Part shown: piece by piece, positions 39,875-52,936 of the stretch
Position numbering within the stretch: the stretch's first letter is position 1
Layout: the number at the start of each line of letters is the position of its first letter
Origin: Elusimicrobiota bacterium
GTDB lineage: Bacteria; Elusimicrobiota; Elusimicrobia; UBA1565; UBA9628
DNA length: 63,501 nucleotides
NCBI GenBank assembly: GCA_003151975.1
Contig: PLZD01000061.1
Location: forward strand, 4,120 to 67,620
Reading direction: 5' to 3'
Notes under the pieces: generated by a model
Seen by the model: the letters and a program-made list of their open reading frames with translations, nothing else
The model's database searches: none
Told to the model about the DNA's origin: nothing
Program-made: the position numbers and the translations under genes

Positions 39875-40678
39875 TTAAATGAGCTTCCTTTCGATGAGGA
39901 TGTCGACGAGCTTCTTGGCCTTCTCCGCCGCGCTGGCTCCTTCCACCTTCATTCCCGCGGGGCGGGCCGGAGGGGTCGAGCACTTCGCGACGAGACTAGG
40001 GGCGAGCTCGGAAAGTTGTGCGGCGTTGAGGCCGAGGTCGGACGCGGTCCACTTCGGCACGGCCGCTTTCTTGGCGGCCATCTTGCCTTTGAGCGAGGGC
40101 AGGCGCGGCTCGTTGATCTCCTTGGTCGTGGAGAGGCAGGCCGGGAGCGTCACCTTGAGCACGTCGGTGCCGTCTTCCATCATGCGCCAGACGACGGCGA
40201 TCTTGTCGTCGATCGAATCGATCTTCTTGACCGAGACGACGCCGGGCCAGTCCAGCCAGGCCGCGGTCTCGGCGCCGACCATGCCGGAGTTGCCGTCGTT
40301 GGTGTTCTTGCCGAAGAGCACTATCGTGACGGGCTTCTCGGCGTTGAGCTTCTTGATGGCGGCGGCGAGCGCGAAGCTCGCCGAATACGCGTTGTCGCCG
40401 TCGAACTCGGGGCCCGAGACGATGACGCCGGCGTCGATGCCGCGCGAGATCGCGTCGCGCACCACGCTTTCCGAAGAATCTGGACCTACGGTCAAGGCCG
40501 TGGCCGTCGAGCCGGGGATGCGCTCCTTCAAGCGCACGGCCTCTTCGACCGCGTACTCGTCGAAGGGATTCATCGCGTAGACGAGGCCCGAGCTCTTGAT
40601 CTTGCCGGTCGCGGGGTCGACGCTGACGTTGGTCGTGGTGGGAGTGTTCTTGACGCAGACGACGATGTTCAGTGACAT
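39875..40678 (-). CDS. etfB: electron transfer flavoprotein beta subunit
   Basis: 267 residues. AMP-binding ETF-beta features are IVVCVKNTP, INPFDEYAVEEAVRLKE-like sequence (MNPFDEYAVEEAVRLKER) and VLFGKNTNDGNSGMVGAETA. A GGAG Shine-Dalgarno precedes the ATG. Four bases separate it from etfA. The tRNA-Tyr gene lies 20 bases upstream of its start on the same strand. Confidence 0.95.
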   Translation of the reverse strand: MSLNIVVCVKNTPTTTNVSVDPATGKIKSSGLVYAMNPFDEYAVEEAVRLKERIPGSTATALTVGPDSSESVVRDAISRGIDAGVIVSGPEFDGDNAYSASFALAAAIKKLNAEKPVTIVLFGKNTNDGNSGMVGAETAAWLDWPGVVSVKKIDSIDDKIAVVWRMMEDGTDVLKVTLPACLSTTKEINEPRLPSLKGKMAAKKAAVPKWTASDLGLNAAQLSELAPSLVAKCSTPPARPAGMKVEGASAAEKAKKLVDILIERKLI

Positions 40679-40698
40679 AGGCGCTCCGTGAATTAAAC

Positions 40699-40785
40699 TG
40701 GTGGATGGGACAGGATTCGAACCTGTGTAGGGCAGGGCCCGACGGTTTTACAGACCGTTGCTTTTGACCGCTCAGCCACCCATCC
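40699..40785 (-). tRNA. tRNA-Tyr(GTA), hybrid gene at the left end of the putative island
   Basis: Class II tRNA, 87 nt with encoded CCA. Acceptor GGATGGG/CCCATCC with discriminator A, anticodon arm ACGGT-CTGTAAA-ACCGT with GTA at 40751-40749, long variable arm and GGTTCGAATCC. Nucleotides 1-42 (40785-40744) are repeated exactly at 52801-52842. The gene is complete and should be functional, but its present upstream region appears to be island DNA. Confidence 0.97.
40744..40785. repeat. att-like direct repeat, left copy (inside tRNA-Tyr)
   Basis: Identical over 42 bases to 52801-52842; the flanking bases differ on both sides. It covers tRNA nucleotides 1-42, including the anticodon loop. Confidence 0.9.
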
Positions 40786-40886
40786 TGATTCAAAATCCGT
40801 CGATTCTTATTGCAGAATTTACGGATCGAAAATCCGCCTCGTCGGAAGCAACGGTCTTTTCCGCCGCTGCTTTTCCGAGGCGATTC

Positions 40887-40916
40887 ATTCTAGCAAAACT
40901 GGCGCGCGAATGTCAT
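40887..40916 (-). promoter_or_regulatory. candidate island-borne promoter now driving tRNA-Tyr
   Basis: ATGACA (40916-40911), 18-base spacer, TAGAAT (40892-40887) on the minus strand, about 95 bases upstream of the tRNA 5' end. The leader would contain a CGCCTCG/CGAGGCG stem and an inverted 12-base piece of the att core (40846-40857). Confidence 0.45.
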
Positions 40917-40993
40917 CCGCGTTTTCTCGACGAGAAAATCAGATCGAGTGCTATCGATCCTTCGAATTTTTCTCCGGAAGGCTCACGCTTTTG

Positions 40994-41017
40994 GTGTCCA
41001 CGGAGTGGACACTTTTT
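40994..41017 (+). terminator. intrinsic terminator-like hairpin in the left non-coding end of the island
   Basis: GTGTCCAC-GGA-GTGGACAC (40994-41012) followed by TTTTT. The stretch 40786-41111 has no gene; it holds this hairpin, the 21-bp inverted repeat overlapping it, and the tRNA promoter. Confidence 0.5.
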
Positions 41018-41056
41018 GGACACGCTTCGCGGTTGGTGTCCAAAAAGCGTCCACTC
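41003..41056. repeat. 21-bp inverted repeat, island left end
   Basis: Arms 41003-41023 and 41036-41056 are inverted copies with one mismatch. The motif GTGTCCAAAAAGYGTCCA recurs as a direct copy at 52649-52669 near the right end. Confidence 0.75.
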
Positions 41057-41111
41057 TGAATCCGCCGGGGGAAACTACGGAGTCTTTGCCGCTCATAGTA
41101 GGAACAGACCC

Positions 41112-41140
41112 TTGACAAATGGTAGTATTATGCTACCATT
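41112..41140 (+). promoter_or_regulatory. promoter and operator of the ParD-like/zeta pair
   Basis: TTGACA (41112-41117), 16-base spacer, TACCAT (41134-41139), with the ATG six bases on. An inverted repeat AATGGTAG-N7-CTACCATT (41118-41140) fills the spacer and -10, a classic position for autorepression by an antitoxin. Confidence 0.7.
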
Positions 41141-41145
41141 GGAGT

Positions 41146-41514
41146 ATGGGACAACCGGTCAAGATCGCGGACGATCTGATGCTCGACGCGCGGATGATGA
41201 GCAAGATAGGGCATCGCTCCATTACCGGCCAGATCGAGTTCTGGGCGCATTTGGGCGAAGCTCTCGAGCCGTTGCTGCAGGGTACGCACGTTCTTGCTCT
41301 GATGAGGTCCCGGTCGGCCAAGCCGTTGTCCGCTTGCCTTGAGTCCGTTGATTCACCCGAGGGCCGCCGGCGGGTCGCCGACCATCTGAAGAGCCTGCCG
41401 TTCCCGCATTATGAGCCGGCACCGGCCCGGCCCGGCCTCCTCGTGCGTACCGAAGCGGACGGCACGAAAACGGTGGGGCGATTCGTCCGCCGCCGGTTCA
41501 CGGCCGTAGGTTGA
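41146..41514 (+). CDS. ParD-like antitoxin
   Basis: 122 residues. The N-terminal MGQPVKIADDLMLDARMMSK, then SITGQIEFWAHLGEALEPLL, matches the ParD-like (ribbon-helix-helix type) antitoxin family. The C-terminal part is basic and Pro-rich (YEPAPARPGLLVR). I start at ATG 41146, which the promoter geometry supports as leaderless; the longer frame to 41119 would begin upstream of the predicted +1. The next gene starts at a TTG overlapping this stop (TTGA), giving coupled antitoxin-toxin translation. It probably represses its own promoter through the inverted repeat. Confidence 0.8.
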   Translation: MGQPVKIADDLMLDARMMSKIGHRSITGQIEFWAHLGEALEPLLQGTHVLALMRSRSAKPLSACLESVDSPEGRRRVADHLKSLPFPHYEPAPARPGLLVRTEADGTKTVGRFVRRRFTAVG

Positions 41515-42092
41515 AGTCCATTCCTGAGCTTGAGAAGCGGCCCGTCCTCGTGGCCGTCGCGGGTCCAAATGGAGCCGGCAAAACCACCTTCTATCACGCT
41601 CACATCGCCCCGGCCGCGCTCAGATACGTAAGCGCCGACGTCCTGGCGCGCGAGCTGGACATGGACGCGTATGCCGCGGCGAAGGCAGCCGACATTCTGC
41701 GGCGCGCCCTGCTCAAGCAAAAAGAGAGCTTCGCTTTCGAGACCGTCTTCTCGGACCCGGTCGGCGACAAGCTGAAGTTCCTCGTGGAAGCCGTGGCCGC
41801 GGGCTATACGGTCGTGCTCTGCTTTATCGGCCTCGATGATGCGCGACTCTCTGAGGAGCGCGTCGCGATGCGGGTCTCTCAAGGCGGCCATGACGTTCCC
41901 ACGGAGAAGCTGAAGGCACGTTTTCCTCGAACGATGGCCAACCTCAAGGCCGCCATCGCCGCGCTGCCGCTGGTTTATGTCTTCGATAACAGCGACTTGC
42001 GCAGGCCCTTTCGAAAAGTCGCTACCTTTAGAGATGGCCGGCCCGCGGAGAAGATCAAAGCGGCGCCGAAGTGGTTCAAGGGCGTGGTTTAA
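41511..42092 (+). CDS. zeta-toxin-like P-loop kinase
   Basis: 193 residues. Walker A is VAGPNGAGKTTFYH, followed by SADVLARELDMDAYAAAKAA and FAFETVFSDP, the pattern of short zeta-toxin/UDP-sugar-kinase-like proteins. Known zeta toxins phosphorylate UDP-N-acetylglucosamine and block wall synthesis; whether this short form does so is unproved. It starts with TTG overlapping the antitoxin stop. Confidence 0.82.
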   Translation: MKSIPELEKRPVLVAVAGPNGAGKTTFYHAHIAPAALRYVSADVLARELDMDAYAAAKAADILRRALLKQKESFAFETVFSDPVGDKLKFLVEAVAAGYTVVLCFIGLDDARLSEERVAMRVSQGGHDVPTEKLKARFPRTMANLKAAIAALPLVYVFDNSDLRRPFRKVATFRDGRPAEKIKAAPKWFKGVV

Positions 42093-42163
42093 GCTCCTTG
42101 ACTAGAGACTGAATTCTTGTCGCTTCCTGTTGCGCAAGCGGGCCTGATCGGGGCTCGTCTAGT

Positions 42164-42517
42164 TTAAGAAGTAGGCGAGGGGGTTTCGGTCTCTGCCTGA
42201 GGCGCTTCAACAGGAGTCTCCGGCTCAAGTGCAACCGGCCGTTGGGTTCTTGACTTGCCTGCCGCCTTCTTCTTCGTGACCGACTTTCGCTTAAGTTTGG
42301 GGTTCGCCTTGGACAGGGTGAGTTTCGCCAGGAGCTCATCGGCCGCCTCTCTAACCGCCGCCGCTTCCTTGCGTGTCGCCTTAGCCGCCTTCTTCGCTTG
42401 CTTGGCGACTTTTTTCGCTCTCTTGTAATCCGCTCTGGCCTTGCGCGCCTTGGCTTCGGCTAATTCTGCTTGCGCCTTAGCTTTCTCTGCCGCTTCTTGG
42501 GTTACCTTCGTGTTCAT
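42164..42517 (-). CDS. Lys/Ala-rich small protein, histone H1-like composition
   Basis: 117 residues. The first 65 form a long, highly charged helix (KAKAQAELAEAKARKARADY, KRAKKVAKQAKKAAKATRKE), then a basic stretch (KSVTKKKAAGKSRTQR) and a Pro/Glu-rich tail. There is a good GAGGAG Shine-Dalgarno before the ATG. It could bind nucleic acid, but low complexity makes family assignment unsafe. It is transcribed away from the neighbouring membrane protein gene. Confidence 0.6.
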   Translation of the reverse strand: MNTKVTQEAAEKAKAQAELAEAKARKARADYKRAKKVAKQAKKAAKATRKEAAAVREAADELLAKLTLSKANPKLKRKSVTKKKAAGKSRTQRPVALEPETPVEAPQAETETPSPTS

Positions 42518-42598
42518 GCCGGATATCTCCTCAAGGAATCATATTTTAGCAAATCCTCTTCGACGCCTCCCACGCCAAAGCGCCGTAGTCCTTTACAG

Positions 42599-42604
42599 TA
42601 TAAT
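42599..42604 (+). promoter_or_regulatory. TATAAT -10 box six bases before the next start
   Basis: Perfect TATAAT at 42599-42604, then six bases, then GTG at 42611. The -35 region is not conserved. Confidence 0.5.
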
Positions 42605-42610
42605 CTCTGC

Positions 42611-43432
42611 GTGAACACAGCAGTGGACTCCCCGATCGTGATGTTTTGGTGGCGAGGCCTCTCTACCGTCGCTGTGCTCAACATCGTCTTGTGGTGTCTC
42701 TGCGTGAGGGCGTACTTGCGCGAGAAGGAATCTCTCTCGCCCCAGGCCCGCGATTTCCGGTTCAAACAACTGATCCTTTGCGCGGGCTTCGTCTTCGGCT
42801 GCGCCTCCCGGTCGTTCGTGCCGCGGGCGGACGTGCAGCGCATCGTCCTGCTCGATTCATGGCTCTCCAGCGTGGCTATCGGCCGCTCGGTGGCGACCGT
42901 CGCCGAACTCTGCTTCATGGCCCAGGCCGCCCTGCTGCTGCGCGACGCAGCAGGCTCCGCGGGGCTGGCGGTCTCCGTTCTGATCTCCCGGCTCGTCGTG
43001 CCTTTCATCGCGGTGGCCGAGGTTTGCTCCTGGTATGCCACCTTGACGACCAACTACATCGGAAACGCCTGCGAAGAGTCGATCTGGGTGCTTTGCGGCG
43101 CGCTGCTCTTCATCGGCGCCTTGCCGCTGTGGCGCCGGAGCGGCGCGCGCTTGAAGAAGTTTCTCGCGGTGCCTTTCGTGTTCGCTCCGTGCTATCTCGC
43201 GTTCATGTGTCTCGTCGACGTGCCAATGTATGTCACGCGCTGGCGCGCCGACCTCGCGCAGGGACGCGTCTACTTCACGCTCGCCGATGGCGTCCACGAC
43301 GTCATGCACCGCTGGGTCGTCACGCGCAGCTTGGAGGATTGGCGCACCGAGTTCCCCTGGATGACCTTGTATTTCAGCGTCGCCGTCTGGGTCAGCCTCG
43401 CCATGACGCGCGCCCCGCGCGAAGAGTCTTAG
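42611..43432 (+). CDS. polytopic membrane protein of unknown function
   Basis: 273 residues with about seven hydrophobic helices (GLSTVAVLNIVLWCLCVRAY, AVSVLISRLVVPFIAVAEVC, WMTLYFSVAVWVSLAM). Polar, conserved-looking loops include SFVPRADVQRIVLLDSWLSS, NYIGNACEESIWVLCG and the C-terminal DVMHRWVVTRSLEDWRTEFP, suggesting a binding or catalytic pocket. The GTG start is chosen from the TATAAT box six bases upstream; the longer frame extends to 42470 across the divergent promoter region. I do not recognise the family. Confidence 0.6.
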   Translation: MNTAVDSPIVMFWWRGLSTVAVLNIVLWCLCVRAYLREKESLSPQARDFRFKQLILCAGFVFGCASRSFVPRADVQRIVLLDSWLSSVAIGRSVATVAELCFMAQAALLLRDAAGSAGLAVSVLISRLVVPFIAVAEVCSWYATLTTNYIGNACEESIWVLCGALLFIGALPLWRRSGARLKKFLAVPFVFAPCYLAFMCLVDVPMYVTRWRADLAQGRVYFTLADGVHDVMHRWVVTRSLEDWRTEFPWMTLYFSVAVWVSLAMTRAPREES

Positions 43433-43463
43433 CCGTCGAGCTAGCCGTCCCAGAAGCTGTTGC

Positions 43464-43494
43464 GTGACGAGGATCACGCGTGATCCAGATCACA
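43464..43494. promoter_or_regulatory. tandem CRP-like sites upstream of tetR
   Basis: GTGA-N6-TCAC occurs twice: 43464-43477 and 43480-43493. The second, CGTGATCCAGATCACA, matches 14 of 16 positions of the E. coli CRP consensus. They end just before the -35 box at 43500. The island's Crp-family protein carries the RETVxR helix that reads such half-sites. An overlapping palindrome GGATCACGCGTGATCC (43471-43486) joins the two sites. Confidence 0.65.
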
Positions 43495-43499
43495 CCCCC

Positions 43500-43531
43500 T
43501 TGACAAATTCAGATAGTCAGTGTATACTGAC
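43500..43531 (+). promoter_or_regulatory. tetR promoter with operator overlapping -10
   Basis: TTGACA (43500-43505), 17-base spacer, TATACT (43523-43528). The palindromic operator GTCAGT-GTAT-ACTGAC (43516-43531) covers the -10. The GTG start at 43535 follows six bases after the -10, predicting a leaderless transcript and autorepression. Confidence 0.88.
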
Positions 43532-43534
43532 CAT

Positions 43535-44218
43535 GTGAAATCAAATCGGCGCTCGCGAATGACGAACGAAGATCGACGCGAGCTGATCCTGAAGGCGGCC
43601 CGTGAACTCTTCGCGCGCACTGGCCTCGAGGGAGCTCGCACGGCGCAGCTCGCGAAAGCCGCGGGGGTCTCCGAGCGCCTCCTTTATAAGCACTTCCCTA
43701 GCAAAGAGGCTCTTCACGAGGCGGCGCTCAAATCCATGGTCGATGAAATCCTCGGGGGAGGCAGCCGCGTCATGTCGCTGGAGCCCTCCACATCGACCCT
43801 CGTCGTTTTGACGCACTATCTGGTTCATGTTCTCTTAGTGCATTCCCCGGAGCGCGACGCTCACGTAAGGGCTATTTTGAGAAGCCTGGCCGGCGACACC
43901 CGCTTCGTGCGCTACGCGCACGCGCAAGGCGTGGGGCTGATCCGCGCGAAGCTTCAGAAGTGCGTCGAGGCGGCCATCGCCGCTGGCGATATCCCCAAGA
44001 AAGGCGCTCGGCCCCGAGTCGCGAGTTTTCTCACGGAAGCTCTCGTGGAAGGGGTGGGGCCCTGGCTCATGTCGGATCCGCCGGTCGTCGACTTCGGGAT
44101 CGACCGGGAGAGCCTGATTGAGGAAGTGACCCGATTCGCGCTGCGAGGACTGGGACTCGGCGAAGAGACGATTCGCCGTTCGTACAATCCCAAGGCGTTG
44201 GCCCTCTTGGCGGGCTGA
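43535..44218 (+). CDS. TetR-family transcriptional regulator of the efflux operon
   Basis: 227 residues. The N-terminal helix-turn-helix is clear: ILKAARELFARTGLEGARTA, QLAKAAGVSERLLYKHFPSK. The C-terminal ligand/dimer domain is helical and ends RRSYNPKALALLAG. I prefer GTG 43535 from the promoter geometry; ATG 43559 (MTNEDRRELILKAA) is an alternative and lacks a Shine-Dalgarno. Matching operators at its own promoter and at 44236-44251 indicate that it represses both itself and the downstream efflux operon until an inducer binds. Confidence 0.9.
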   Translation: MKSNRRSRMTNEDRRELILKAARELFARTGLEGARTAQLAKAAGVSERLLYKHFPSKEALHEAALKSMVDEILGGGSRVMSLEPSTSTLVVLTHYLVHVLLVHSPERDAHVRAILRSLAGDTRFVRYAHAQGVGLIRAKLQKCVEAAIAAGDIPKKGARPRVASFLTEALVEGVGPWLMSDPPVVDFGIDRESLIEEVTRFALRGLGLGEETIRRSYNPKALALLAG

Positions 44219-44224
44219 TTTTTT

Positions 44225-44253
44225 TTGACGTGATAGTCAGTATACACTGACTA
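44225..44253 (+). promoter_or_regulatory. efflux-operon promoter with TetR operator
   Basis: TTGACG (44225-44230), 17-base spacer, TGACTA (44248-44253). GTCAGTATACACTGAC (44236-44251) is the exact reverse complement of the 16-mer operator at the tetR promoter. A T8 run just after the tetR stop (44219-44226) may end the tetR message. Confidence 0.75.
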
Positions 44254-44278
44254 ATGAAGCAAAAGGAGAGACCGGATT

Positions 44279-44443
44279 ATGAATCAGCGGGAACATAAAG
44301 CAGGCCCTGGCGAAGCAGTCCATGAATTTCCTCTCGCCGCGGCGTTGCGCGTCGCCTTTTTTAAAGACGGCCTGCGCGGCGTGAATCCGACGCGAACCGC
44401 TGAGCTGAGGAGCATCCGGCAAGCGACGCAGGTGATAGCATGA
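44279..44443 (+). CDS. 54-residue leader protein of the efflux operon
   Basis: Reads MNQREHKAGPGEAVHEFPLA and continues to a TGA that overlaps the next start (ATGA). AAGGAGAG stands 8 bases before the ATG, the best ribosome site in the island. The product is basic, soluble, with no membrane helix or known motif; VNPTRTAELRSIRQATQVIA ends it. It may be a real small protein or a translational leader that couples ribosomes into the transporter gene. Confidence 0.55.
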   Translation: MNQREHKAGPGEAVHEFPLAAALRVAFFKDGLRGVNPTRTAELRSIRQATQVIA

Positions 44444-45600
44444 CCGACTTTCTTATTCGTCGCGGCCCCGCTATAAAGGAACAACCTGTGATGAAACACG
44501 AAAACCAGCCGGGCAACGGCGACACGATCTTCCTGGCGCTGCTCGGCATCCTCGCCCTGGGCGGGATGCTGACGATCCTGCTTCCATTCGTCGGTCCCAT
44601 CATCATGGGCGGCGCCATAGCGATCACCGCGTACCCCGTGCACCTGGGGATGGGGCGACGCTGGCCCGGGCTTTCGCCGGTCGTGCGCTCACTGCTGATC
44701 AATCTGGTGATCTTGATGCTGTTTATCCTGCCCGTCTTCTTCCTCGCGCGGACGGCGGCGGGCCAGGTGGATACGATTCGGCCCGTGCTGGCTCGCTGGG
44801 TCGAAGCCAGCCAAGCGATTCACCGAGGGAGGCTGAACGGTCCCTTCAGCGCGTTGCGGCCGATCCCGGACGTCGTAGCGCGCCAGAGCGGGATGAGCGC
44901 CGCTCAGGCGACAGCCTTGCTGCTGCCCCGCGCGGCGCGGGGCTTCGACAAGCTTGCCGAAGGCGCGGGAAATGCCGCCGCGGATCTCTTTCAAGGCGCC
45001 CTCTGCCTCGTCTTGTGTCCTCTCATCACTTTCTTCCTGCTGGTCAACGGACCGGAGTATGTCGAGCGGTTGAGCGGGCTGCTCCCGCTGCGCGCGGAGG
45101 ACCGGCGGCGCCTCTTCGAGCGAACGCGCGATGCCACCATAGCGGTCGTTCGCGGTCTCTTTTTGACGGCGCTGCTCGAGACCGCAGTCGCGACGCTGGG
45201 CTACGCGCTGATGGGAATCCCGTGCGCGGTCTTGCTAGGCGTACTGACGGGCTTTGCCAGCATCGTGCCGGTCATCGGCACGAGCAGCGTCTGGGTGCCC
45301 GCCGGCCTGGCGATGATACTTGCTGGACAGACCGTTCGGGGCGGCCTCGTCCTCGTTTGGGGGACTGGTATGGTCCTCCTGATCGACAACGTCGCGGCGC
45401 CCTGGCTGGTCGGACACCGGATTCGCATGAGTCTCCTGCCCATGTTGTTCGGGATGCTGGGCGGCGCGGCGGTTTTTGGGGTGAAAGGGCTTTTAATCGG
45501 ACCGCTGATCATGTCGATCTCGCCCACAGTTTTCGAGCTGATACGCATTCGCGTCATCAGCCCAAGGAAGAAGCAGATGAATGGAGGAACACACGAATGA
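44440..45600 (+). CDS. AI-2E family transporter (PerM/YdiK-like)
   Basis: 386 residues, about eight membrane helices in the family order: an N-terminal pair (LALLGILALGGMLTILLPFV), a central soluble region, and the conserved C-terminal block with GVLTGFASIVPVIGTSSVWV and VGHRIRMSLLPMLFGMLGGA. The ATG at 44440 overlaps the small ORF stop; ATG 44491 (MKHENQPGNG) with AAGGA upstream is an alternative. Family members export autoinducer-2 or act as Na+/H+ antiporters, so substrate is open. Confidence 0.85.
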   Translation: MTDFLIRRGPAIKEQPVMKHENQPGNGDTIFLALLGILALGGMLTILLPFVGPIIMGGAIAITAYPVHLGMGRRWPGLSPVVRSLLINLVILMLFILPVFFLARTAAGQVDTIRPVLARWVEASQAIHRGRLNGPFSALRPIPDVVARQSGMSAAQATALLLPRAARGFDKLAEGAGNAAADLFQGALCLVLCPLITFFLLVNGPEYVERLSGLLPLRAEDRRRLFERTRDATIAVVRGLFLTALLETAVATLGYALMGIPCAVLLGVLTGFASIVPVIGTSSVWVPAGLAMILAGQTVRGGLVLVWGTGMVLLIDNVAAPWLVGHRIRMSLLPMLFGMLGGAAVFGVKGLLIGPLIMSISPTVFELIRIRVISPRKKQMNGGTHE

Positions 45601-46241
45601 TGAGTCAGAGAGTCGGCAAGCGGGCGATAGGCATGTTGCTGCTTCTGTCGCCCGTCGTCGCTCAGGCCGCGCATTTCGTCGACGTTCGAACCGCCGCGGC
45701 GATCCGCGAATGCCTGACCGTGACGCTTCGGGCGGAAGTCTTGGATAGAACCGACGGCGATTCCGTCGCGCGCGTCCGGAGCTACCATCTCAGAGTCGCG
45801 ATCCCGGAGGGAACCGTTCCCGACGTGCGCGTCGGCTCATCGATCCGCGTCTCGCTTCCTGTCGTTCACCACGCCGAGGCTTTCGCCAAGGTCATGTCCG
45901 TAACCGGCGGCGACATCACGGTGCTCTTATCGGATCAGATACAGCAGCTCGATGGACTGCGGCTTAAGGCGGACCTTCCGCTCAAGCCGGTCAATCTCTA
46001 TCGCATCCCCTTCCAGGCCGTTTACAGCCCGAGGGGGATCACGACGGAGACCTTCGTCTTCGACGGCGCGCGCGTGAGCCTCGTTCGCGTCGCCGTCCTG
46101 GAGATCCACGACGACGGCGGTATCGTCGTTTCATCGAGCCATTTGGCCGATGCGAGGGTCGTCGTCAACGGATTGGACAATCTGGTTTCGGGAGATGAAG
46201 TGAACCTTATGCCCGCCGCTCAGGAGGTCGCCCATGATTAA
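45597..46241 (+). CDS. secreted adaptor-like protein, reduced membrane-fusion-protein fold
   Basis: 214 residues with a signal peptide (RAIGMLLLLSPVVAQAAH). The rest is beta-rich and resembles the barrel and membrane-proximal domains of RND adaptors (GSSIRVSLPVVHHAEAFAKV, YRIPFQAVYSPRGITTETFV, LDNLVSGDEVNLMP). The alpha-hairpin and split lipoyl domain expected of a full adaptor are absent. The ATG follows GGAGG and overlaps the AI-2E gene; the RND gene starts within its last eight bases. It is the only adaptor candidate in the operon. Confidence 0.65.
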   Translation: MMSQRVGKRAIGMLLLLSPVVAQAAHFVDVRTAAAIRECLTVTLRAEVLDRTDGDSVARVRSYHLRVAIPEGTVPDVRVGSSIRVSLPVVHHAEAFAKVMSVTGGDITVLLSDQIQQLDGLRLKADLPLKPVNLYRIPFQAVYSPRGITTETFVFDGARVSLVRVAVLEIHDDGGIVVSSSHLADARVVVNGLDNLVSGDEVNLMPAAQEVAHD

Positions 46242-49200
46242 CCCGCCGAAGGAGCTGGGAATATTCGGTTGGAAGCGCCTGCTCCTCACGATCGCCGTGC
46301 TCTTGTTCCTCAACGGCATCGTGAAGTGGTTTTCGACCCCGCAGGAGGAGGACCCGCAGCTGCCTCCACGGGATGGCATTGTCACGGTGATATATCCCGG
46401 CGCGCCGCCTGCCGACGTCGAGCGGCTGGTCGCGAAGCCGATCGAGGACGAGCTGGCGCAGGTCGAGGAGGTCCGAGAGATCAAGACGCGCATGAGGACC
46501 GACCTCTTGTTCATGCAGATCAAGCTCAAGGACTCGGTGACGCACGAACGCACCGAGGAAGCCTGGAACAAGGTCCAGCGCGCGCTGGATCGCGCGGCGG
46601 TCAAGCTCCCCGAGACCGCCGGACGTCCTGACCTCAACCGCGACATCTACGATCAGGACGCCGTCTTCCTGGCGCTTTACGGCGGTTCGGATCGCCTCGT
46701 TCTCTTCGATCAGGCGCGGGCGCTCAAGGACCGTCTGCAGCTGAGCCCCATGGTCAAGGCCATCGATCAGGTCTGCCCTCCGGGAGAGCAGCTCACTGTC
46801 CTGCTGGATCGCGAAAAGGGCGCGCGCCTCGGAATCTCGATCGAGAATTTCGTCAAGCAGCTGCGCGGCGGAAACGCGGCGATCCCATCCGGCTACGTCT
46901 TCCTTAACGGCGAGAAGGTCACGGTCCTGACGAACTCGTTCTACCGGTCGGCGGAGGAGCTCTCGAAGTTCCCGATCGTCCTGAGGTCGGGCGAGACCGT
47001 CCTGCTGAGCGACATCGCCAAGATCTCGAGGACGCCGACGTTCCCCGTGCGCGAGAGCATGAACTTCAACGGCGCGGCGGCAACGGGCATCGGCGTCGTC
47101 CCGCAAAAATACCTGAACCTCACCAAGTTCGGCGAGGAGGTCCGCCGGATCGTCGAGGAATACGAGCAGACCGATTCCTTTAAGAAGTCCGGCTTAAAGA
47201 TCGAGGAGGTCAGCTTCCAGCCGCATTATGTCGAGGAGCGCGTCCGAGACATCGGCTTGGACTTGCTCAAGGCCATCGTGCTGGTCGGAGGCGTGCTGAT
47301 GCTGATGCTCGGCGTGCGCGTCGGCTCGATCGTGGCCATCCAAGTTCCTTTCGTGAGCGCCGTGGCCTTCGGCCTTTTCGCGATGACGGGAGGGATCGTC
47401 AATCAGATCTCGATTGCGGCCTTCATTCTGGCGATAGGCCTGCTGGTCGACAACGTGGTCGTCATCGTCGACGGCATCCAGACCAAGCTCGACGCGGGCC
47501 TCGGCGCCGTCGAGGCGGGCGAGACGACGAGAAAGGAGTACCTCATCCCGCTCCTGGCCGGCACGCTGACCACGATCGCGGCGTTCCTTCCGATGCTGAT
47601 CTCGCACGGCATCTCGGCGGACTTCACGCGCTCCATCGGCGTCGTGGCGACGCTGGCCTTGGGCTGCAGTTACCTGTTCTGCATCTTCGTCACCCCGATC
47701 CTCGCGGCGGCGTTGTTGAGGAAAGGCAAGGCGCGGCAGTGGACCTTCGTCGAGCCTCTAGGGAAGAGGATGGGGGAACTCGTTCAGCGGCGCTCGAAGC
47801 TCCTCGCGCTCGCAGCTCTGGGGGCCGTCGTCTGCGCCTTTCTGGGGTTCAGGTTCGTGAAGCAGCAGTTCTTCCCTTACGCCGATCGCGACATGGTGAT
47901 CGTCGACATCCAGCTCCCCGAGGGGACCCATTACGAGTCCACCCGACGGGCCGCGTCCTTGGTCGAGGCGGCTTTGCTTAGGGACCCGCGGGTCAAGTCG
48001 GTGACCACGCTGCTGGGCCGCGGCGTGCCGCCCTTCTACTACAACCTCCCGCGGGAGCCCAATGCTCCGCACATCGCGCAAATGATCGTGCGGACGACGA
48101 GCGTCAAAGCGGCGCGCTACCTGAAGCTAGATCGCGAGGAAGAGCTCAAGCGCTTGGTCCCTTTCGGCGTCCTCATCGTCAAGGAGATCTCCCAAGGTCC
48201 GCCGGTCAAGGCGCCCATCGAGGTCCGCGTCTTTTCGGACGATCCTGTGAAGCTTCAGGAAGCCGCGCAAAAGGCCTTCGCGCTCGTGCGCGAGGCCAAG
48301 GGCGTGGCGTCGGTGCGCTCGACGCTCGGCGTGGGAGCGCTCTCGTACAAAGTCGACGTCAACGACAGCGCGGCCGGGCTTTACGGGGTGACCCGGGCCG
48401 ACGTCGCGGCCATCGTGCTGGCCAAGACGTCCGGCGTGCCGATCGCGACCTTCCGCGGCGGCAGCGATCCCTACATGATCGACCTCATCTACGATACCAA
48501 CGAGAAGTCGAGCTTCTCGGAGATCGGCAAGAGCTACCTGGGGTCGACCAGGACGGACGACGTCTCCGTGCGGACCGTCGTCCAGAACTCCGTCCAGTAC
48601 GGACCGGCGGTCCTGGAGCATTATGACCGCTCGCCGGTCGTCTACATCTACGCGCAGCTGGCTCCCGGCTGTTTGGAGAACGTGGCCGACGACAACGTGA
48701 AAAAACAGCTCGCCAAGCTCCAGCCGATGCCGGGCGTGCGCTACGAGCTGGCCGGAGCCATGAAGGAGTCCGCGGATTCCCAGAAAAAAATATTCGCGGC
48801 GCTTCCCGTGGCACTTTTCATTCTGCTGCTCTCGCTTATGTACGAATTCAATTCCTACCGCCGCATCGCGATCATCCTGCTCACGATCCCGCTCTGCATG
48901 ATCGGATCGGTGCCTGGCCTGATCGTGACCGGAAGCACGTTCGGGTTCATGACCTTGCTCGGCATCTTCGCTCTCGCGGGCACGGTCATTCACAACGGCA
49001 TCTTCCTGATCGACTACATCGATCATCGCCGGCATGAGGGGATCCCTCTCGACGAGGCGATCACCGAGGGAATCCAGAGGAGGACTCGGCCGATCATCCT
49101 CACGGCCGTCGCGACCATCGTGGAGCTCATTCCGATGACGATGAGCTCATCCACGCTCTGGCCGCCGTTCGCGTGGGTGATCATCACGGGGTTGACGGTG

Positions 49201-49284
49201 TCGACCTTGATGACGCTGCTGGTGATCCCCTCGGTCTTTAAATTGACCTTCGCAAGGGAGGCTGAACATGCGCACGCTAAATAA
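46234..49284 (+). CDS. RND-family efflux transporter (AcrB/HAE-like)
   Basis: 1016 residues with two repeats of one helix, a large periplasmic domain and five helices. Visible features are EEDPQLPPRDGIVTVIYPGA after TM1, the TM4 relay helix AIGLLVDNVVVIVDGI (VDN where AcrB has VDD), and TM10 LAGTVIHNGIFLIDYIDH. Length and duplication match a complete pump. With the downstream TolC and upstream adaptor-like protein it should form a tripartite proton-driven exporter. Substrate unknown. Confidence 0.92.
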   Translation: MINPPKELGIFGWKRLLLTIAVLLFLNGIVKWFSTPQEEDPQLPPRDGIVTVIYPGAPPADVERLVAKPIEDELAQVEEVREIKTRMRTDLLFMQIKLKDSVTHERTEEAWNKVQRALDRAAVKLPETAGRPDLNRDIYDQDAVFLALYGGSDRLVLFDQARALKDRLQLSPMVKAIDQVCPPGEQLTVLLDREKGARLGISIENFVKQLRGGNAAIPSGYVFLNGEKVTVLTNSFYRSAEELSKFPIVLRSGETVLLSDIAKISRTPTFPVRESMNFNGAAATGIGVVPQKYLNLTKFGEEVRRIVEEYEQTDSFKKSGLKIEEVSFQPHYVEERVRDIGLDLLKAIVLVGGVLMLMLGVRVGSIVAIQVPFVSAVAFGLFAMTGGIVNQISIAAFILAIGLLVDNVVVIVDGIQTKLDAGLGAVEAGETTRKEYLIPLLAGTLTTIAAFLPMLISHGISADFTRSIGVVATLALGCSYLFCIFVTPILAAALLRKGKARQWTFVEPLGKRMGELVQRRSKLLALAALGAVVCAFLGFRFVKQQFFPYADRDMVIVDIQLPEGTHYESTRRAASLVEAALLRDPRVKSVTTLLGRGVPPFYYNLPREPNAPHIAQMIVRTTSVKAARYLKLDREEELKRLVPFGVLIVKEISQGPPVKAPIEVRVFSDDPVKLQEAAQKAFALVREAKGVASVRSTLGVGALSYKVDVNDSAAGLYGVTRADVAAIVLAKTSGVPIATFRGGSDPYMIDLIYDTNEKSSFSEIGKSYLGSTRTDDVSVRTVVQNSVQYGPAVLEHYDRSPVVYIYAQLAPGCLENVADDNVKKQLAKLQPMPGVRYELAGAMKESADSQKKIFAALPVALFILLLSLMYEFNSYRRIAIILLTIPLCMIGSVPGLIVTGSTFGFMTLLGIFALAGTVIHNGIFLIDYIDHRRHEGIPLDEAITEGIQRRTRPIILTAVATIVELIPMTMSSSTLWPPFAWVIITGLTVSTLMTLLVIPSVFKLTFAREAEHAHAK

Positions 49285-50587
49285 GTTCCTGCCGGGGACG
49301 GTCTGCGTTCTCATCCTGTGCCGGGCCATCGCGCACGGCGAGAATGCGACGATCTCGATCAAGGGCGTCTTGGATCGCGCCGCGGCCGGTCCTGAAGTGA
49401 TCGCGGCTCAAGCGCAAGCCAACGCGGCCGGCGAATCGTCGTCCGCGCTTTGGCGGGCGACGTACGCGCCGAAAGTCGGCGGCGTGCTGGCCTACTCCCA
49501 TATGGTCGAGGACCAGTCCGTCGTCCTGCCGTCGTTCGGAGGGATTCTCCTTCCTCCGATGCCGGTCCAGTCCGACATGACGCTGGGCACGGTGCAGATC
49601 ACTCAGCCCCTATTCGACCCTGCGAACATGCTCTACAACACGAAAGCGGCGCAGAAAAAGGCGGAGGCGGCGCGCATCCGCTCCTCGCGTCAAGCGAAGG
49701 AGACCCAGGGCACGGCCATCGGATACTTTCTGCAAATCCTCGAGCTGCGCTCGAAGCGCAGCGCTCTGGAGATCTACAGGAATAATCTGAAGGGGCGGCA
49801 GAACGAGATCACGCGCCTTTATGATCTCGGCGCGGTCAGCGAGAGCGATGTCTTGAAAATAAAATTAGGCATCGATGACGCCGACCAGGGAATCCGCGAG
49901 ATCGCTCTCAAGGAGGATTACTTGGCGCGGATGCTTGCCGTTGTTCTCGGCACCGATCAGGTCAGGACTCCGGAGGATCTGCCGGATGAACTGCCCAATC
50001 CGACCGTCAGGAACGACCTTTCCGATGTGAATCATCTCGAGAAGATCCATGCCATGGACGCGGAGCTCGAATCCCTGAAGTCCGCGCAGAGCGGGTTGAA
50101 GGCGGATTACCTGCCGAAGGTCTCCGCTTTCGCGCAGCATTCCTACACGAACTCGGATCTCTTCAACAGGTCGAGTTTCGATACTGGAGGCGTCCTCCTT
50201 TCCTGGTCGCTCTTCGATGGGGGCGTGAATCTTGCGAAAGCGAAGGCCGTTAAGCACGAGCATGAGTCCTTGGAGCAGATGAGGGGGCTGGAAGCCGGTT
50301 CGATCCAGGCCGGCTTTCGGGACGCGGTGAATACCCTGCAAACCAAGCGGCGGGAATACGATGAGCGCCGCGCCGCTGTAGCCGAGGCGAAAAACGTGGA
50401 GAATATCGAGTTCAAGCGGCTCAAGAACGGCAAGTCGACGGTGAACAACCTCATCGACGCGGAAGATACCCTGAAGGACAGGACGGAGAAGGCGAGCCTG
50501 TCTCGGGTCAATTGGTACGAGGCGTGGTTTCACCTGGAGCTGGCGGCCGGCGAACCGCTCAGCGCTCCAGGGAGTGCGATGCCATGA
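49268..50587 (+). CDS. TolC-family outer-membrane protein of the RND system
   Basis: 439 residues with a signal peptide (LPGTVCVLILCRAIAHGE). TolC-type repeats are visible: TQPLFDPANMLYNTKAAQKK in the first barrel/helix unit and LLSWSLFDGGVNLAKAKAVK in the second, each followed by long helices. The start overlaps the RND gene by 17 bases. It is distinct in sequence from the TolC protein at 18.9 kb. Confidence 0.9.
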   Translation: MRTLNKFLPGTVCVLILCRAIAHGENATISIKGVLDRAAAGPEVIAAQAQANAAGESSSALWRATYAPKVGGVLAYSHMVEDQSVVLPSFGGILLPPMPVQSDMTLGTVQITQPLFDPANMLYNTKAAQKKAEAARIRSSRQAKETQGTAIGYFLQILELRSKRSALEIYRNNLKGRQNEITRLYDLGAVSESDVLKIKLGIDDADQGIREIALKEDYLARMLAVVLGTDQVRTPEDLPDELPNPTVRNDLSDVNHLEKIHAMDAELESLKSAQSGLKADYLPKVSAFAQHSYTNSDLFNRSSFDTGGVLLSWSLFDGGVNLAKAKAVKHEHESLEQMRGLEAGSIQAGFRDAVNTLQTKRREYDERRAAVAEAKNVENIEFKRLKNGKSTVNNLIDAEDTLKDRTEKASLSRVNWYEAWFHLELAAGEPLSAPGSAMP

Positions 50588-51281
50588 AAACGCAACTCGT
50601 CGGAGAGCCGGAGAGCCGGAGAGCTTCTTGGCCACGGTGCCCTACTTCGCGGGCATTCTGTCGGAAAAGCTGCGCAGGCTTGCCGCGCGAAGCGTAGTTA
50701 GACGTCTTCATCGTGGGGAGATCTTGATTGAAACCGGCCACGGACCCGAGTTGGCGTGGCTCGTGAGTTCCGGGTTGATCCTGAGATCCGTTTTCGCCGC
50801 CGACGGCCGGTCGCTGACGGTCGACTTGCGCCGGCCGGCAGAGGGTTTCTGCTCTTCGGGCGATGGCGACCAAACTCCAATCCAGACCTCCGCCCTGATC
50901 GATTCCGTGGTAGTCGGCGTGCCATTGGGTCCAGCGCTCGACGCTATCGCCGGGCGTCCGGATCTGTTGAGACGGTTCACGGGCGATCTGACTGCCAGGC
51001 TCCGAGAGTCGCAAAGCATGCGGGTTATCGTCATCGAATCGGCCGCGCGACGCGTGCTCCGGGTATTGAAGTGGCTCCAGGAAAAGCTTGGACCGAGAAT
51101 CCCTTTCACGCGAAAGGCGATCGCCGACGTGGCCGGTTTGCCCAGAGAAACTGTGATTCGGGCGCTCTCGCCTATCGAGAAGAAAGGCTGGATCCGCAGT
51201 AAGCGCGGCCAGCTTCGGATCATCAGACCCGATAAAATCGCAAGGATGCTCGACGCCGGAGGCCGCCATGATCACAGATGA
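50574..51281 (+). CDS. Crp/Fnr-family transcriptional regulator
   Basis: 235 residues, GTG start overlapping tolC by 14 bases. The N-terminal cNMP-type barrel (RRLHRGEILIETGHGPELAW, VSSGLILRSVF) lacks the GE...R phosphate-binding cassette of true cAMP receptors, so the ligand is unclear. The C-terminal winged helix contains RKAIADVAGLPRETVIRALS; R-E-T-V-x-R matches the CRP recognition helix that reads GTGA. Predicted targets are the tandem sites at 43464-43493. No Cys cluster of the FNR type is seen. Confidence 0.88.
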   Translation: MRCHENATRRRAGEPESFLATVPYFAGILSEKLRRLAARSVVRRLHRGEILIETGHGPELAWLVSSGLILRSVFAADGRSLTVDLRRPAEGFCSSGDGDQTPIQTSALIDSVVVGVPLGPALDAIAGRPDLLRRFTGDLTARLRESQSMRVIVIESAARRVLRVLKWLQEKLGPRIPFTRKAIADVAGLPRETVIRALSPIEKKGWIRSKRGQLRIIRPDKIARMLDAGGRHDHR

Positions 51282-52386
51282 ATTGAACACTGTCGAACTC
51301 AATGCGCTCCTCGCCCGCCTGCGGGAGAGCGAAGCTAGGCTCGAGGACTTCCTCGAAAACGTGGGCGATCTCATCATGATGACTTCAGTGGACGGCCCGG
51401 ACGGCCGCATCATCTACGCCAATCGCGCCTGGAAAGCGAGGCTGGGCTACGACGAGGAGGATCTCAAGATGATGTGCATCCGTGATCTGTTCCGCCCGGA
51501 AGACAACGAGCGGATGGCGGAGATTCTCGAGAGGCTCAAAACCGGAGAGTCCATCCAAGGCCTCGTGCTCAATCTCGTATCGAAGGACGGCGTCGTCTTC
51601 CCCGCGGAGGGTTCGGTGAGCCTGCGCTTCCAAGACGGCAAGCCCGTTTACAGCCGCGTGATCCTTCGCGACATCACCGAGCGCCTGAAAATCGAGCAGA
51701 TGAAGAACGAGGCGGTCTCCCTGGCGAGCCACGAACTGCGTCAGCCATTGTGCGTCATCAAGACGGCCCTCGACGCCATCGGGCAGTTCGGGCAGACCCT
51801 GCCCGTCGCCAAGGCGGATGAATTCCTGCAAATGGCTCGCCGCAACACTGAGAGACTGGCGGAGATGGTGGATGTCTATCTGGATTTGGCGAAGCTGGAG
51901 TCGGGCGCCATGGAACTGAAGTCCGGGCCCGTGGAGCTTTCCGCCGTCATTGAGCGCGTTGTGGCCGATGTCGGATTGACCGCCGCCCAGAGGGGCGTAC
52001 GCTGCGAGATGTCCGGCGCCCGAGAAGTCCTCATGGTCGTCGCCGATCCTCTCCGTTTGACCCAGGTTTTGACCAATCTTCTCTCAAACGCCGTGAAATT
52101 CTCGCCGGCGGGGGAAGCCGTCACGGTTTACTGGACGCGCCAGGACGGCGAAGCGAGCGTGTCGGTGGCCGATCGCGGACCCGGCATCTCTCGTGAGTTC
52201 AGGTCCCGGATCTTCGGTAAGTTCGCGCAGGAACGCAGGATCGAGACCTCAGGGGCGACCAAGGGCACGGGGCTCGGCCTGAGCATCGCGAAGGCGATCG
52301 TGGAGAGATTGGGGGGACGCATTTGGTTTGAGACAAAAGTCGGCGAAGGCACCACCTTTCGCTTCACTCTTCCAGTTTCCGTATGA
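51268..52386 (+). CDS. PAS-domain sensor histidine kinase
   Basis: 372 residues without membrane helices, so cytoplasmic. A PAS domain spans residues 25-145 (GRIIYANRAWKARLGYDEED; ends VILRDITERLK). The HisKA box has the phospho-acceptor in VSLASHELRQPLCVIK. The ATPase motifs are NLLSNAVKFSP (N), VADRGPGIS (G1) and TKGTGLGLSIAKAIVE (G2). It overlaps the Crp-type gene by 14 bases and ends the efflux operon. No response regulator is encoded in the island. A receiver-only protein lies 550 bases downstream, beyond the right repeat. Confidence 0.93.
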   Translation: MITDELNTVELNALLARLRESEARLEDFLENVGDLIMMTSVDGPDGRIIYANRAWKARLGYDEEDLKMMCIRDLFRPEDNERMAEILERLKTGESIQGLVLNLVSKDGVVFPAEGSVSLRFQDGKPVYSRVILRDITERLKIEQMKNEAVSLASHELRQPLCVIKTALDAIGQFGQTLPVAKADEFLQMARRNTERLAEMVDVYLDLAKLESGAMELKSGPVELSAVIERVVADVGLTAAQRGVRCEMSGAREVLMVVADPLRLTQVLTNLLSNAVKFSPAGEAVTVYWTRQDGEASVSVADRGPGISREFRSRIFGKFAQERRIETSGATKGTGLGLSIAKAIVERLGGRIWFETKVGEGTTFRFTLPVSV

Positions 52387-52398
52387 CAGATTTGGGCG

Positions 52399-52459
52399 CG
52401 CCGCTCGGCCTTGCTACGTTCGAGCGCTAAGCTTCTGAGCGTAGCAAGACCGAGCGGCG
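52399..52459 (+). terminator. large stem-loop after the histidine kinase gene
   Basis: Arms 52399-52418 and 52440-52459 pair over 20 bases with one mismatch, enclosing a 21-base loop whose CGCT/AGCG ends extend the stem. No T tract follows. It probably ends or protects the operon transcript. Confidence 0.55.
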
Positions 52460-52572
52460 TCCATAGCGCGCGGACCTGCGCCTGCGGCGGGCGGTTCGAT
52501 CCGTGGACTCAGGCTATCTACGAGCCAAGTCCACGTCTCGAACCTCGGAGGAAATCCTGGAATGCCGTTGGA

Positions 52573-52669
52573 GCTTGCGACCGAAGGTCGCAAGCAGCCC
52601 GCTGCAAGCGCCCGCGGACTCAGCCAGGACCTTTTGGCGCTCTAATGTTTGGTGTCCAAAAAGTGTCCA
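52573..52669. repeat. hairpin and end-repeat in the non-coding right end of the island
   Basis: GCTTGCGACC-GAA-GGTCGCAAGC (52573-52595) is a perfect 10-bp hairpin. At 52649-52669 a 21-base copy (20 of 21 identical to 41033-41053) of the left-end GTGTCCAAAAAGYGTCCA motif occurs in direct orientation. A short copy of the att core, ACCGTTGCTTT, sits at 52730-52740. The stretch 52387-52936 holds no convincing gene. Confidence 0.7.
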
Positions 52670-52800
52670 TCCGAACGCCAAAATAGGCCATTTCCAACCT
52701 TCTCGGCACCAATCGCCGCAAAGATCGAAACCGTTGCTTTGTGTTAGCAGGATCAGCGTTTCCGACGGAGAAAGGGGGGAGAAAATCCGGGGGCGTCCTA

Positions 52801-52842
52801 GGTTTTACAGACCGTTGCTTTTGACCGCTCAGCCACCCATCC
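52801..52842. repeat. att-like direct repeat, right copy (5' half of tRNA-Tyr)
   Basis: Exact copy of 40744-40785. It is a truncated tRNA: nucleotides 1-42 only, followed by unrelated sequence on the minus strand. Confidence 0.9.
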
Positions 52843-52852
52843 GACTGAGGAG

Positions 52853-52882
52853 ATTCTAGCTTTTTCGAGAGAGTTTTCTCAA
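52853..52882 (-). promoter_or_regulatory. stranded promoter pointing into the truncated tRNA-Tyr
   Basis: TTGAGA (52882-52877), 18-base spacer, TAGAAT (52858-52853) on the minus strand; the tRNA 5' end follows 10 bases after the -10. The placement suits a tRNA promoter and there is no other gene for it to serve. Confidence 0.7.
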
Positions 52883-52936
52883 ATGCGCCGCGGGCCGAGC
52901 GGACCGGCCGCGTATATCGTAAACTTTAGGTCAGCC

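Follow-up and report, generated by a model that had tools for sequence, protein, structure and literature searches.

The 43535-52386 region of the 63,501-nt window (i.e., the whole stretch of Elusimicrobiota DNA analyzed here) carries eight ORFs, one fewer than the nine genes of the original prediction. These are all encoded on the plus strand, and comprise a TetR-family repressor (43535-44218, 227 aa; PF00440, 3.5e-16), an unproven 54-aa ORF (44279-44443, a leader or small protein), an AI-2E family permease with a YdiK-like C-terminal half (44440-45600, 386 aa; PF01594, 4.6e-41; YdiK 7ot9, 9e-12), a reduced periplasmic adaptor (45600-46241, 213 aa), an RND permease (46234-49284, 1016 aa; PF00873, 6.2e-129), a TolC-type outer-membrane factor (49268-50587, 439 aa; PF02321, 1.3e-24), a Crp/Fnr-type regulator with a GTG start (50574-51281, 235 aa; PF13545, 1.3e-11, alongside Crp-fold PDB matches) and a soluble PAS-HisKA-HATPase sensor kinase lacking a receiver domain (51268-52386, 372 aa; 3.3e-30). 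Pfam matches bear out, at the places first proposed, the assignment of the TetR, AI-2E, RND, TolC-type, Crp-type and PAS kinase genes. All reading frames are intact, most of them with strong coding scores, and from the 54-aa ORF onward neighboring genes overlap by 4, 1, 8, 17, 14 and 14 nt. The head-to-tail overlap expected from 44279 is thus present, but it links seven ORFs rather than eight. An imperfect 61-bp palindrome 3' of the last gene (52399-52459) is a possible terminator, although it lacks a T tract. Overall, the locus co-encodes an RND permease, a periplasmic adaptor and an outer-membrane factor, which at the gene level defines a tripartite RND pump.

Upstream of tetR, a sigma-70-like promoter was recognized by consensus match on the plus strand (43500-43528; TTGACA-17-TATACT, 11/12), with a predicted transcription start near the tetR start codon. 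The candidate TetR operator, a 16-bp palindrome (GTCAGTRTAYACTGAC), lies inside a 20-bp repeat found at 43512 and 44232: predicted operator 1 (GTCAGTGTATACTGAC, 43516-43531) overlaps the tetR -10 box, and predicted operator 2 (GTCAGTATACACTGAC, 44236-44251), its exact reverse complement, stands in front of the operon. No other site occurs in the 4.64-Mb genome, even with two mismatches allowed, and the number of exact sites expected by chance is ~6e-4. Matching palindromes at both promoters, together with a repressor gene adjoining the operon, form the arrangement by which a TetR-controlled efflux operon is recognized. A terminator-like hairpin followed by T7 lies after tetR on the plus strand (44197-44226); like the second promoter, this terminator is supported at the level of consensus matches only, 12 terminator-like sites being found vs. 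7.5 expected. Because the hairpin and the second operator lie between tetR and the operon, tetR probably has its own autoregulated message, separate from that of the operon. The proposal of one message under TetR therefore needs to be narrowed: the operon anatomy and the genome-unique operator in front of it support a single TetR-controlled message starting near 44279, but tetR itself is probably not part of it. TetR would bind both operators and thereby repress its own gene as well as the operon, until released by an intracellular toxic compound, probably small and amphiphilic or hydrophobic.

The first ORF of the operon is the least certain. It has a good Shine-Dalgarno sequence, but its coding score is weak (0.068, comparable to those of the ParD-like and Crp genes of this region) and our searches found no relative. 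It may serve as a leader ORF, or may not be a gene at all. Within this ORF, 5' of the AI-2E gene, a hairpin followed by six T (44339-44361) resembles a terminator and could be a leader-type attenuator, a match that is within chance expectation.

A reduced adaptor in a pump core shared with one other genome

The protein described as "adaptor-like" in the original prediction is a genuine periplasmic adaptor (hhalign 96%, E 1.1e-9), but a shortened one. Its 213 residues, for which Pfam and NCBIfam return no family match, align to columns 219-374 of 380 in a profile of 14 full adaptors, a region corresponding to the beta-barrel and the membrane-proximal domain, and a single gap takes the place of the lipoyl domain and hairpin. 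The 22 adaptors adjoining related RND genes are 351-437 aa long (vs. 213 aa here), and the usual definition of an adaptor (a lipoyl domain plus an alpha-hairpin contacting TolC) does not cover the cassette protein. Folded as a single sequence, it reached a pLDDT of 34; a model built from the adaptor alignment reached 66 (~90 in the membrane-proximal part), which is mediocre and leans on the supplied alignment. The best structural matches of this model were AcrA, BesA, MexA and TriA, all of them weak (E ~1e-3 to 1e-2 for BesA and AcrA).

A search of 341 genomes from the phylum gave one close relative of the RND permease (in genome G030, 69% identical; the next best are 25-26% identical), beside which an adaptor (44%) and a TolC (48%) are encoded in the same order, without TetR, AI-2E, Crp or kinase genes. 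The full gene order, whose conservation had been put forward as a check on the original prediction, was not found anywhere among these 341 genomes, but the adaptor-RND-TolC core does recur in G030, so that order is not entirely unconserved. In a one-genome-per-species scan, the RND permease had one closer relative, from an Acidobacteriota MAG (37% identical), next to a full-length adaptor, whereas identity was 25-29% for the other relatives, none of which had the same neighbor set. In this MAG (L010:8974-13275), the related RND permease and TolC are apparently fused in one 1433-aa frame. Among plasmids, the RND and AI-2E proteins matched distant family members only.

The G030 adaptor has the same short form, although G030 belongs to another genus, and its occurrence in two genera speaks against the short adaptor being the product of misassembly or recent decay. 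Since the Acidobacteriota relative has a full adaptor, the reduction looks derived. The parts retained (beta-barrel and membrane-proximal domain) would be those gripping the RND permease. Having no hairpin with which to reach TolC, the adaptor would act as a collar, and TolC would need to make direct contact with the funnel of the RND permease; RND, reduced adaptor and TolC would then expel substrate from the periplasm.

The main competing reading of this adaptor is that of decayed cargo, in which hairpin and lipoyl domain were lost by deletion and the pump is no longer a tripartite machine. Both domains are normally needed for assembly, and the integrase of the surrounding island (see below) is gone as well. 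We nonetheless regard decay as unlikely, given that a short adaptor is kept beside a closely related RND in a second genus, that the cassette frames are intact with mostly strong coding scores, and that BesA of Borrelia burgdorferi, which has no alpha-hairpin but keeps its lipoyl domain, indicates that the hairpin is not always needed (PMC3807786).

Pump identity and accessory genes

For each NCBIfam equivalog model matched by the AI-2E permease, the score falls far short of the cut-off (e.g., YdiK, 67 bits vs. a cut-off of 305); the TqsA model is absent among these matches, and a chloramphenicol exporter model is among them. On these scores, equivalog-level likeness to the proven AI-2 exporter (TqsA) appears to be lacking. 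As the AI-2E family includes Na+(Li+)/H+ antiporters (PMC7221264), as well as members matching the chloramphenicol exporter model, membership of the family is not in itself evidence of signal export. The permease could serve as a helper at the inner membrane, across which it would move a compound or a counter-ion. The two distal genes, for the Crp-type regulator and the PAS kinase, would probably tune expression to the redox or energy state. No response regulator partner for the kinase is encoded inside the operon. A receiver protein at 52883 was considered for this role and set aside, as it lies 40 bp past the end repeat of the island and is at most a candidate partner.

These observations bear on the function first suggested for the cassette, a dedicated export-and-respond system in which AI-2E and RND proteins export a signal or metabolite that the Crp-type regulator and PAS kinase sense. 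All the genes it calls for do overlap in one operon. However, the combination is not conserved (the only other genome with the pump, G030, lacks AI-2E, TetR, Crp and kinase), AI-2E family functions are diverse (PMC7221264), the kinase has no receiver partner within the operon, and the cassette is part of an island whose insertion site holds differing cargo in related genomes. We thus consider this system distinctly improbable.

The RND permease itself is closest, among solved structures, to MexK (346 bits, 3e-102) and TriC (339 bits, 7e-100), with ZneA at 148 bits. In NCBIfam, the multidrug RND_permease_2 model scores 345 bits vs. 236 bits for CusA/CzcA, both under cut-off, and by these comparisons the protein appears nearer to multidrug (HAE1) than to metal pumps. 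Its proton relay differs from the HAE1 pattern (Asp-Asp in TM4, Lys/Arg in TM10): TM4 has D-N (LLVDNVVVIVD vs. LLVDDAIIAVE, with D-D, in MexK) and the Lys/Arg position of TM10 is a His (TVIHNGIFLID; the MexK segment is MIMRNSVILVD). By eye, the G030 permease has the same altered positions (D-N and His). Proton coupling with one Asp is assumed here. A D-N relay, resembling that of pumps that have a single relay Asp, is what could be said for a heavy-metal efflux (CusA/CzcA-like) operon, but the bit scores favor MexK and TriC over ZneA and RND_permease_2 over CusA/CzcA. With MexK and TriC as the closest solved relatives, a metal pump was rejected as very improbable.

An island at tRNA-Tyr and its relatives

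The cassette lies between two copies of a tRNA half. An intact tRNA-Tyr (GTA; 40699-40785, minus strand, ARAGORN) is the insertion target, and its 5' half (40744-40785), the left end repeat of 42 bp, is 100% identical (blastn) to the right end repeat at 52801-52842, a displaced tRNA-Tyr 5' half. The genome contains no third copy of this repeat, which ends in the anticodon loop. Between them, a 12.1-kb island (40744-52842) carries the whole cassette, a ParD-like antitoxin (41119-41514, plus strand, PF11903), an overlapping zeta-toxin-like kinase (41511-42092, plus strand, PF06414) and a putative membrane protein of no family (42470-43432, plus strand). Intact tRNA and displaced fragment have the same orientation, and the fragment is on the correct side, as in a tRNA island. 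Upon insertion at tRNA-Tyr, the island would have supplied the 5' half of the working tRNA, leaving the original 5' half at the far end. This 5'-half geometry is uncommon but known, with 159 of 3919 islands in Islander having a 5' fragment (PMC4383910).

A 17-bp end motif (GTGTCCAAAAAGYGTCC), in which two GTGTCC units are spaced by 11 bp, occurs three times in perfect form in the genome, each time at an island end (~2e-4 expected by chance). Two inverted copies lie at the left end (41007-41023, minus strand; 41036-41052, plus strand), and one at the right end (GTGTCCAAAAAGTGTCC, 52652-52668, plus strand), 132 nt before the tRNA fragment. The GTGTCC units may be akin to integrase arm sites. The left end departs from the standard layout, its motifs lying 222 and 251 nt away from the tRNA (vs. 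a standard 57-79). No integrase ORF or remnant is found in 40600-52900, and the island is therefore either fixed or mobile only with an integrase from elsewhere. Matches to genome G013 that could have been taken for an integrase remnant were rejected, being the tRNA sequence itself: in G013 (L092:2934-4115), a tyrosine integrase frame enters the tRNA-Tyr, the 5' half of which thus codes for the C-terminal residues of the integrase.

Outside the island, the single-copy gene at 56057-58738 recurs in just one relative (G002), on the same side of etf-tRNA-Tyr and 4.9 kb from the tRNA, with no tRNA fragment there. This arrangement would fit an insertion here, although the intervening genes differ.

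In related genomes, the end motif recurs as pairs that share a contig and point the same way, and a tRNA gene adjoins most of the sites retrieved. Five clean-repeat elements, at tRNA-Tyr, tRNA-Arg (two), tRNA-Ala and tRNA-Thr, have a 37-45-bp tRNA 5' half duplicated, and in them the distance from fragment to motif is 126-135 nt (vs. 132 nt here). A tyrosine integrase is encoded at the tRNA end in the elements of G022, G018, G027, G046 and G013. It is hardly credible, then, that the operon is native and the 42-bp repeat merely the trace of an old, independent duplication of part of the tRNA, as the lack of an integrase in the interval might suggest, since the repeat is perfect and ends at a usual crossover point, perfect end-motif copies are confined to the two island ends, extra tRNA-Tyr 5'-half fragments occur in 13 of the 57 genomes searched (this one included) and 3'-half fragments in none, and intact integrase-bearing elements share the layout.

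The family of islands with the end motif (TGGTGTCCAAAAAGTGTCCA) includes L124, L125, L127, L121/L122 and L083 in addition to 40744-52842 of the window, and the cargo of these and other islands is varied. By eye, L125 carries a type I restriction-like set. Among the tRNA-Tyr islands, that of G015 (L087:1087-4186) encodes a reverse transcriptase (RVT_1) together with an FGE-sulfatase-fold protein, a pair that looks like a diversity-generating retroelement; that of G024 (L084:1846-4374) encodes a TOTE conflict system primase-helicase (AEP-TOTE, 9e-84) and, in the same island, a DUF4143 ATPase; and that of G011 (L083:5306-7235) encodes an AbiEi/AbiEii-like toxin-antitoxin pair. A closely similar protein of 132-144 aa, sigma-factor-like by eye, is present in two tRNA-Tyr islands (L083:1870-2268 and L084:5153-5587), and the L083 copy has no known family in Pfam. 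With a recognizable end motif, the cargo of these islands (efflux, restriction, TOTE, toxin-antitoxin) is easy to find.

Overall reading and comparison with known systems

Taken together, the locus is likely to be an efflux operon that is repressed by TetR and forms part of the cargo of an integrated tRNA island. The cassette is better read as an inducible efflux pump accompanied by passenger genes, the pump being of a common kind and the unusual details lying in its reduced adaptor and island context, the latter also explaining the patchiness of the gene set. It is tempting to speculate further that the pump works with an adaptor made only of beta-barrel and membrane-proximal domain and with TolC on the RND, and that it is spread by an integrase-less island borrowing, via the 17-bp motif, the integrase of related elements; this fuller scenario is possible, if on balance doubtful.

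The closest counterparts of the pump are MexJK-OprM and TriABC-OpmH, which belong to the same RND branch and have the same adaptor-RND order; in MexJK, a TetR-type repressor adjoins the pump genes. The cassette differs from both in having its own TolC, in the added AI-2E, Crp and PAS kinase genes, in an adaptor without lipoyl domain and hairpin, and in the D-N relay and the His in TM10. Our literature search found no paper describing AI-2E and RND genes in one TetR operon. The AI-2E permease in turn has the PF01594 domain in common with YdiK, TqsA, the UPF0118 antiporters and CxpE, and resembles YdiK in its C-terminal half.

For the adaptor, the nearest parallel is BesABC, likewise a tripartite RND pump with a hairpin-less adaptor (PMC3807786). 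BesA keeps its lipoyl domain, whereas the cassette adaptor lacks this domain too, and thus falls outside a BesA-like class (hairpin absent, lipoyl retained), a step beyond BesA. The role of the adaptor hairpin has been disputed, with the hairpin either meeting TolC tip-to-tip or wrapping a direct RND-TolC contact, and BesA has been a main counter-example to a required hairpin (PMC4446572). A conserved adaptor without the lipoyl domain as well would offer a sharper natural test of this dispute than BesA.

Finally, the tRNA islands of the Islander set also combine an intact tRNA, a displaced fragment, cargo in between and a crossover in the anticodon loop (PMC4383910). Compared to that set, the island described here stands apart by its 5'-half type, the absence of an integrase and a 17-bp end motif common to several tRNA targets.
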